From Kangiella sp. TOML190 (GTDB taxonomy: Bacteria; Pseudomonadota; Gammaproteobacteria; Enterobacterales; Kangiellaceae): a stretch of DNA of 64,000 nucleotides. Where the stretch lies: NCBI RefSeq assembly GCF_023706045.1, contig NZ_BQYL01000001.1, positions 434,001 to 498,000 of the forward strand. The letters are read 5' to 3'. How positions within the stretch are numbered: the first letter of the stretch is position 1; each line of letters starts with the position of its first letter. Positions 62,350 through 64,000 of this stretch are shown piece by piece. The translations under genes were made by a program, and so were the position numbers. Below the pieces are notes generated by a model. It worked only from the letters and a program-made list of their open reading frames with translations. It had not been told where the DNA came from and ran no database searches.

Positions 62350-62390
62350 TAATGCAAGCTTGCATTAAAATTTAATGCAAATTTGCATTA
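62350..62390. repeat. two tandem 18-bp perfect palindromes
   Basis: TAATGCAAGCTTGCATTA (62350-62367) and TAATGCAAATTTGCATTA (62373-62390) differ only in the central two bases and are centred 23 bp apart, roughly two helical turns. They stand between hemL and the diguanylate cyclase start at 62401. A dimeric repressor or activator binding side by side is the likeliest reading. Local hairpins in the mRNA are the other possibility. Confidence 0.7.
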
Positions 62391-62400
62391 TTTGATTCTG

Positions 62401-64000
62401 GTGAGCGCTATAAGCAATTCTGATGCTCAAGAAGCAAAAGGATTTACCAACTATTTGATTCTAGGCCTGATCTTAGTGATCTTAGGCTTGGCTAGTCATG
62501 CCTACAATTTATACATCGCTTCCGAAAATGAACAGCTCAGCAATCAATACCAACAAGACTTTGCTCAATATCAGCGTGATAATGTCTACTTCTCACCGCT
62601 CAACACCATCAATTGGATTGAAATTCGACAAAACGAAAATGGCTACTTTGTCACCAACCCCGATCTGATCAATGAACCTTCGCAATACAACCAAAATAGT
62701 TTGCGCGCAACTCGTTACGCGGTAACCACCTTGGCGCAACTAAACGGCGTTGGGAACATCAGTGAGCAGACGGTGTTAGATTTCCTTGAGAGCCGTTACC
62801 ATGAGTTTGAACAAAATAACGTCAAACTTGCCGGTTTTTCAACCCTAGAAAATACTGAAGTTGCGGTTCGCACTACCATGGACGCGATCCTGACGCTGAA
62901 GCATTTGGATGCTTTTGATAAGTTAAACATTGATTGGGATGCAGTACGCCGGTTTATTCTAAAGCACCAAAATTCTGATGGCGGCTTTTGGGATCCCCAT
63001 TATCCAAAATTTGGCACCACCTCTTGTTTAAAGTGTACCTCTTTTGCATTGCGCGCTTTAGGTGCTTTAAACGAGTTTGAGGGTAAACACTTCCCCAAAT
63101 CCTTCCAGCAAAAAGTTATTCATTACGTCAAAGCAAGCTGGGATAAAAATCGCGATGCCTATTCAGCTCGACTAGGAGTTGAAGCTGAAGATAGCTACGA
63201 TATTTTTCGTGCTTTTATTATTTTTTGGAATTTGACCAATGGTAATGCCGAACTAAAGCGCAACCTTGTTTTAGAGCAGTTCCCACTCGAATCGGTCGAG
63301 GAAACCTTACAAGCACACTTTATTACCAAGGATCGAGCCTATGCTCGTAAGTGGGATGCCCAATACCCGTCAATGAAAGCAACTCACCTGATGGTCTGGA
63401 TGTATTACAACTTGGGGATGCTCGATCGACTGGATAGAAATGGCATTATCGATTTTGTATTCATCAATGAAAAAAACCCCGGCGAATATGGCGGTGACAT
63501 TTATAACACCTACTCAGCCACGGGCATTTTGACCAAGCTGGATATCAATACTGAACCCTTAAGTCCACCGCAGGAACCTCAGCTACAACATTCGATACTG
63601 CCCAACTTTCTGCCTTATTTATTGTATATATTAGCTCTTGCGACAACCTTAATATATTTCAATAAAGACAAGCGTAAATTGATCGATAAAAACTTATTGC
63701 TGGAAAATAAAGCCTTTAAAGACAAGCTTACCGGACTCCACAACCGCGAATTTATTGAGCGCGCTTACCAATACCATCAAGAAACTGATGAAGTTTTAAG
63801 CCTGATCTTGATCGACATTGATAACTTCAAAGTCATCAATGACAACCATGGTCATTTGATCGGCGATAAGGTTTTGCAAGACTTTGCCAAGCTGTTACAA
63901 ACCAGTTTGCGCTCATCCGATACTTTAGCCCGCTGGGGTGGCGAAGAATTTGCATTGCTTTGCCCCTACACCGATATGAGCTCGGCGATAGTTCTAGCAG
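62401..64000 (+). CDS. diguanylate cyclase with extracytoplasmic alpha/alpha-toroid-like sensor (partial)
   Basis: The frame runs 533 codons and leaves the right edge. Residues 18-39 form a first transmembrane helix. About 45-395 are outside the cytoplasm, then a second helix (403-420) leads to a GGDEF domain: DKLTGLHNR at 441-449, I-site RSSD at 504-507 and GGEEF at 513-517, so it should make c-di-GMP with product inhibition. The external part has helix-pair repeats with terpenoid-cyclase/prenyltransferase-like words: HQNSDGGFWD (189-198), CTSFALRALGAL, and GEYGGDIYNTYSATGIL (361-377). C209 and C212 form a CxxC. The start is GTG without a clear ribosome site; no ATG is available before residue 160. 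The 3' end is missing. Confidence 0.8.
   Translation, partial: MSAISNSDAQEAKGFTNYLILGLILVILGLASHAYNLYIASENEQLSNQYQQDFAQYQRDNVYFSPLNTINWIEIRQNENGYFVTNPDLINEPSQYNQNSLRATRYAVTTLAQLNGVGNISEQTVLDFLESRYHEFEQNNVKLAGFSTLENTEVAVRTTMDAILTLKHLDAFDKLNIDWDAVRRFILKHQNSDGGFWDPHYPKFGTTSCLKCTSFALRALGALNEFEGKHFPKSFQQKVIHYVKASWDKNRDAYSARLGVEAEDSYDIFRAFIIFWNLTNGNAELKRNLVLEQFPLESVEETLQAHFITKDRAYARKWDAQYPSMKATHLMVWMYYNLGMLDRLDRNGIIDFVFINEKNPGEYGGDIYNTYSATGILTKLDINTEPLSPPQEPQLQHSILPNFLPYLLYILALATTLIYFNKDKRKLIDKNLLLENKAFKDKLTGLHNREFIERAYQYHQETDEVLSLILIDIDNFKVINDNHGHLIGDKVLQDFAKLLQTSLRSSDTLARWGGEEFALLCPYTDMSSAIVLA

Follow-up and report, generated by a model that had tools for sequence, protein, structure and literature searches.

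A probable membrane-bound diguanylate cyclase of Kangiella with a predicted prenyltransferase-type toroid as its external sensor

What does a membrane-bound diguanylate cyclase respond to when the domain between its two membrane helices resembles an enzyme barrel? The question is raised by a gene of the marine bacterium Kangiella sp. TOML190 that runs over the end of the stretch analyzed here (the window, 64,000 nucleotides, bases 434001–498000 of the sole contig of a 2.45-Mb genome). A first-pass annotation, made from the sequence alone, had described the gene product as a diguanylate cyclase whose sensor resembles a terpenoid-cyclase/prenyltransferase toroid. We consider it likely that this protein is a membrane diguanylate cyclase carrying a barrel of the protein prenyltransferase β-subunit type that has lost its zinc site and works as a receptor.

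The open reading frame (ORF) and the two membrane helices with a long stretch between them were found as first annotated (Table 1). The window end cuts the gene, whose genomic end is at window-equivalent 64176. The start codon is likely the GTG at 62401, which is in register with the ATG of the related locus L018 (alignment by eye); in-frame TTG alternatives lie upstream at 62383 and 62392. In the product of 591 residues, two membrane helices flank a stretch of ~345 residues and the GGDEF domain follows the second helix, the membrane segments covering residues ~12–41 and ~399–421 of translation P0001 by hydropathy. The charges ahead of the first helix are mixed and carry little topological information; as the GGDEF domain must be cytoplasmic, two helices are present and NKDKRK follows the second of them, the middle stretch should lie outside the membrane. 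The GGDEF domain scored 137 bits (curated cut-off 23.8) and contains the GGEEF and RSSD words reported earlier. GGEEF and RxxD are retained in all 21 sequences compared (including the window but not locus L030), and the membrane enzyme probably makes cyclic di-GMP (c-di-GMP).

The sensor matched the Pfam profile PF00432 at 46.5 bits when taken alone and at 43.7 bits within the whole protein (gathering cut-off 26.5), and the profile was matched by all 14 sensors of alignment A1, which holds the window sequence and 13 others from the same genus. The glycine words NSDGGFWD and GEYGGDIYNTYSATGIL, cited in support of the toroid, are both found in the sensor. Comparison of the internal repeats as profiles showed 6 of 15 pairs to be alike at E<1e-3, as opposed to none of 300 pairs with shuffled columns; the repeat borders were drawn by eye and, because column shuffling also destroys helical periodicity, part of this similarity may reflect a common helix pattern. 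The predicted model consists of six alpha-alpha hairpins arranged in a barrel, and among the matches listed in a structural alignment (50 of 994 chains aligned) all are protein prenyltransferases by title. No Cache, CHASE, PAS or TPR sensor profile was seen in the Pfam output for the protein up to an E-value of 10 (filters drop most matches above 0.1), and the model shows another fold. The fold search that the first-pass annotation had proposed thus agrees with its toroid, and the sensor interpretation is supported by the model. Like the domain content, conservation pattern and operator pairing, the fold was obtained by computation.

The choice between the two toroid families originally named falls on the prenyltransferases. 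DxDD, the acid motif of class II terpenoid cyclases, was found in none of 21 sensor sequences, and neither was CGEQ, the thioester word of TED domains. A sensor profile matched 13 hopene-cyclase-like stretches weakly (probability 24%, E 8.5e-4, 154 columns). Terpenoid cyclase was accordingly rejected as the best name for the nearest kin, while the prenyltransferase part of the label is upheld by the structural alignment; the rejection carries the reserve that 50 structural entries of 994 were shown and that 5 of the 14 sensors match the Pfam profile SQHop_cyclase_C weakly (best E 8.4e-5).

Conservation in the sensor is concentrated on the lumen side. The 63 invariant or nearly invariant columns of alignment A3 include 29 of 83 inner-helix residues as opposed to 3 of 76 outer-helix residues (Fisher p 7e-7). 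Likewise, 28 of 116 loop residues are conserved at the outer-to-inner mouth and 3 of 39 at the opposite end (p 0.035), and within the inner helices conserved positions make up 23 of 42 in the initial seven-residue segments and 6 of 41 further along (p 2e-4). A conserved basic residue lies close to the mouth on five of the six inner helices (Arg57/Arg60, Arg112, Lys166, Arg225 and Lys281; P0002 numbering). As the chain enters from the first membrane helix and exits to the second at the opposite end, the conserved mouth should face away from the membrane. A receptor whose ligand is soluble or exposed would show a pattern of this kind, and a polar or acidic molecule of the periplasm is the most likely ligand. 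A conserved CxxC redox switch was considered and rejected, as the cysteines of SCLKC are not kept and cysteine is missing from the scanned region in 7 of 21 sequences.

The barrel might instead bind another protein of the periplasm or outer membrane, whose state would then be the signal; toroids of the TED and prenyltransferase types are also able to hold protein chains. Protein prenyltransferases hold peptides in the barrel cavity (PMC9141697), and 9 of the 14 sensors match the TED_complement profile, weakly (best E 1.9e-5). However, conservation peaks inside the barrel and not on the outer helices, and no neighbour gene is common to Kangiella and the other genera, which leaves a protein partner unlikely, if still worth bearing in mind.

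In the β-subunit of RabGGTase, the zinc ligands are Asp238, Cys240 and His290, and nine aromatic positions are named as contacts of geranylgeranyl diphosphate (GGPP; PMC9141697). A profile of the last 128 sensor residues aligned its positions 73–98 to residues 249–274 of 1dce chain B; this stretch scores 1.5 bits and stretches on other repeats up to 16.1, but it is the one in the register of the structural alignment. Carried back without gaps, profile positions 62 and 64 (Ser279 and Lys281, invariant in 22 of 22 sequences of A3) take the places of Asp238 and Cys240. For His290, a backward count that begins at the last aligned pair (339/305) gives Asn324, a column with N, S or T in relatives (alignment A2). 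The same arithmetic pairs the GGPP-cage residues Tyr241, Trp243, Trp244 and Phe293 with Ala282, His284, Leu285 and Ser327, and Phe289 with Tyr323, the sole aromatic kept among the five mapped of nine positions. The zinc site of the barrel has apparently been replaced. Prenyltransferase alpha-subunit repeats (PF01239) gave no match in the Kangiella sp. TOML190 genome, which a diverged copy could escape. Given the replaced zinc ligands, the changed cage, the failure to detect a PPTA alpha subunit and the absence of DxDD and CGEQ, the barrel is probably neither a prenyltransferase nor a cyclase.

A more specific version of the receptor proposal, which we regard as rather speculative, is that the fold now serves in the periplasm as a receptor for phosphorylated or diphosphate ligands, in which the invariant lysine stands where the cysteine had bound zinc and recognizes an anionic group, possibly that of a lipid-linked cell-wall or exopolysaccharide precursor. 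If so, envelope synthesis would directly set c-di-GMP. A touch more doubtful is a periplasmic isoprenoid receptor that keeps the lipid binding of the fold, for example for a prenyl diphosphate or the cell-wall lipid carrier. Its closest fold among the matches listed is an isoprenoid-binding enzyme subunit, and the conserved basic residues of the mouth could grip a diphosphate, but of the five mapped aromatic lining positions one is kept, the zinc site is not, and the mouth seems to face away from the membrane. The isoprenoid ligand suggested in the first-pass annotation loses weight on these grounds. An active prenyltransferase, cyclase or glycan-cleaving toroid with catalysis coupled to signalling is very improbable: the near folds among the matches listed are all enzyme subunits and the lumen side is strongly conserved, but the zinc ligands are replaced, DxDD and CGEQ are absent from all 21 sequences and no PF01239 match was found in the genome.

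We prefer to see the barrel as a receptor: the extracytoplasmic input of the cyclase would be a six-hairpin alpha/alpha barrel of the β-subunit type whose ligand enters through the conserved mouth, facing away from the membrane by fold topology, and is bound there by the polar and basic side chains with which the inner helices begin at their N-termini. This would alter the barrel or a barrel dimer, both membrane helices would pass the change on, and c-di-GMP synthesis by the GGDEF domains would start or stop, the RxxD site serving for product inhibition. The amount of the protein would probably be set by a small Cro/C1-type regulator acting on twin promoter palindromes.

These palindromes are both perfect copies of AATGCAANNTTGCATT, starting at 62351 and 62374. 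When up to two mismatches were allowed, 29 of 100 window shuffles also gave two matches, so that the exactness and not the looser count is the evidence. The genome contains nine exact copies of AATGCAANNTTGCATT against 0.09 expected (first-order model, window composition) and none of a reversed control pattern; the 19 other genus members contain 0–3 exact copies each. Pairs spaced by 22–23 bp occur at only two places in the genome, the cyclase promoter and directly upstream of a gene (L096:2943–3365, minus strand) for a protein of 140 aa with a borderline match to a Cro/C1-type helix-turn-helix (PF13443, 22.0 bits, cut-off 22). This regulator gene is present in 19 of the 20 genomes of the genus. 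All 19 have a motif copy (≤2 mismatches) starting within 61 bp upstream, and 13 have two copies (≤3 mismatches each) ~22 bp apart, a count without shuffle control. The Cro/C1-type protein likely controls its own gene, with the AATGCAANNTTGCATT set apparently serving as its operator, and the toroid cyclase is the clearest other putative target in its own species. Of the five other places with exact sites, two are single sites preceding c-di-GMP genes, a TPR-GGDEF gene and a DUF3391-HD gene (HD-GYP type). Two more lie upstream of a surface-protein-like gene and of a DUF3644 gene, and the fifth falls within the start of a subtilase ORF. Exact-palindrome loci include 62351–62389 of the window, L096:3385–3422, L095:1888 and L098:3015; a gene for a rhomboid-like membrane protein (named by eye; L096:2293–2925, minus strand) adjoins the regulator gene.

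The motif lies upstream of the cyclase gene in 3 of 12 Kangiella loci, namely the window, L018 (two mismatches) and L024 (one), and the putative link between regulator and cyclase is species-limited. Four of the nine motif-free loci (L019, L020, L021 and L031) have a different, 26-bp palindrome, AATCCAAGTC-NNN-TTTGACTTGGATT, ~30 bp upstream of the gene (diverged in L031), and five have neither; the second pattern was derived from some of these loci, whose match to it therefore tests nothing. It looks as if control of the promoter had passed from one regulator to another in sister species.

Species genomes were scanned with two peptide patterns from A1, an approach that would miss relatives without those peptides. 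The scan gave 73 stretches, 21 of which encode a relative. GG[DE]EF is found in the same ORF in 20 of the 21, the exception (L030) being cut by a contig end, and the eight relatives scanned whole with Pfam were all above both cut-offs. The titles of the relatives name Kangiella, Kangiellaceae, Thiotrichales, Thiodiazotropha, a Ctena symbiont, Sedimenticola, Thiolapillus, Chromatiaceae, unplaced Gammaproteobacteria and, in one case, Krumholzibacteriia; the copy so titled (L033) sits among gammaproteobacterial ones in the tree. Whole-genome search detected the gene in 15 of 61 relatives, all of the same genus (14 of its 19 other members were positive). At class level, 5 of 369 genomes matched, own genome included, all in open frames of 606–641 aa; four of these matches (G000, G122, G358 and G191) were checked for GG[DE]EF, and no toroid with another output domain was found among the five. 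In the order of G408, 5 of 147 genomes had a match. As to the spread of the fusion, about which the first-pass annotation had asked, it reaches beyond Kangiella but is patchy. A further search of 398 genomes yielded three matches, the own one and two weak ones (L074 and L075), whose frames have no GGDEF word by eye (L075 partial); here too, no case of this toroid joined to a different output domain was found. PF00432 itself was matched in 42 of 339 class genomes at 46 places; loci were given for 30 of these. Four of the 30 read as GGDEF fusions, all from the toroid-GGDEF family, and 19 of the other 26 have DxDD and cyclase length or near; for several of the remaining loci (L054, L058, L063 and L065 among them) the longest frame chosen may be wrong. 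In the own genome, the cyclase gene is the only PF00432 match.

All 11 other Kangiella/Kangiellaceae loci compared share the window order pyrB-hemL-gene-SDR-ALDH (short-chain dehydrogenase/reductase and aldehyde dehydrogenase), and this constant place between hemL and SDR-ALDH indicates that the gene was inherited within Kangiella. In other genera the neighbours differ (read by eye from ORF starts), and gene context was rejected as a guide to the ligand. The sensor tree and the GGDEF tree (21 rows) both separate one Kangiella group and the copies from outside Kangiella; the other Kangiella copies form a weakly supported group in one tree and no group in the other. Loci L034–L038 are a Kangiella subgroup at the same genomic place with a fast-changing sensor and a slower GGDEF domain.

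Against the toroid assignment, a single sensor sequence gave nothing significant in the PDB (best E 0.36), although profile and model do match. Several observations weigh against the receptor proposal. Inner, outer, mouth and base, the classes behind the conservation counts, were assigned by the analyst from helix order after viewing the alignment. The zinc-site map is sequence arithmetic from a weak 1.5-bit stretch and not a superposition of coordinates, His290 to Asn324 being the weakest of its three mappings. The neighbours are housekeeping genes in Kangiella and differ elsewhere, so that the context names no signal, and the link to the regulator consists only of a common DNA motif that 9 of the 12 Kangiella loci lack before the gene. 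One Kangiella subgroup has a sensor branch of 2.34 as opposed to a GGDEF branch of 0.42, which would fit changed specificity or loosened constraint, and a same-genus copy with 40% sensor identity (L014) is interrupted within the sensor by an in-frame stop. Together with the 5 of 19 other genus members without a match, these show the gene to be dispensable. The toroid could also be a protein-docking or merely structural domain.

Table 1. Positions of the cyclase gene, its promoter elements and its encoded features in the window
Feature	Position	Strand	Evidence
Palindrome AATGCAAGCTTGCATT, putative operator 1	62351..62366	.	motif scans
Palindrome AATGCAAATTTGCATT, putative operator 2	62374..62389	.	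motif scans
Toroid-GGDEF diguanylate cyclase gene	62401..64000 in window, continues to window-equivalent 64176	+	ORF + Pfam
First membrane helix, TM1 (approximate)	62440..62508	+	hydropathy
Alpha/alpha toroid sensor (P0002 residues 17-340)	62584..63555	+	
Toroid repeat 1	62587..62754	+	profile comparison + model; borders by eye
Toroid repeat 2	62755..62928	+	profile comparison + model
Toroid repeat 3, contains QNSDGGFWD	62929..63093	+	profile comparison + model
Toroid repeat 4	63094..63252	+	profile comparison + model
Toroid repeat 5	63253..63432	+	profile comparison + model
Ser279-Met-Lys281 (P0002 numbering), at places of Asp238/Cys240	63370..63378	+	A3 + hidden Markov model stretch carried back gap-free
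Toroid repeat 6, contains GEYGGDIYNTYSATGIL	63433..63561	+	profile comparison + model
Asn324, at place of His290	63505..63507	+	count back from structurally aligned end + A2 columns
Second membrane helix, TM2 (approximate)	63595..63663	+	hydropathy
GGDEF domain, cut by window end	63700..64000	+	Pfam, 137 bits
RSSD I-site	63910..63921	+	sequence motif
GGEEF signature	63937..63951	+	sequence motif

A toroid-GGDEF sensor was not found in targeted literature searching, judged by titles and abstract starts, and the words prenyl, toroid, terpen, isopren and squalene are absent from the main text of a 2022 review of c-di-GMP sensors (PMC8846402). The domain pair is visible by Pfam alone and may already stand in domain-architecture databases without comment. 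The family would add to c-di-GMP signalling a class of external sensor not found described in the literature searched, in which an enzyme barrel familiar above all from protein lipidation in eukaryotes has apparently been re-used as a receptor, with an invariant Ser/Lys pair in place of its metal site. It is compact, occurs in named Kangiella strains, and offers definite residues and a promoter.

Compared with the β-subunit of RabGGTase (PDB 3dss, 1dce), the sensor has replaced zinc ligands, is tethered to the membrane between two helices and is fused to a GGDEF domain; in contrast to protein prenyltransferases, no partner alpha subunit was found in its genome. With the TED domain of alpha-2-macroglobulins it shares weak profile matches in 9 of 14 sensors but not the CGEQ word. 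Squalene-hopene cyclases belong to the same Pfam toroid family and have DGG(F/W) words in common with the sensor, which differs from them in the lack of DxDD, its single barrel and a weak profile match. Finally, the order of first membrane helix, sensor, second membrane helix and GGDEF domain, the GGEEF signature and the I-site are common to transmembrane diguanylate cyclases with periplasmic Cache, CHASE or PBP-type domains, whereas the sensor here is an all-helical toroid: the layout of this cyclase is ordinary, but its input domain is not.
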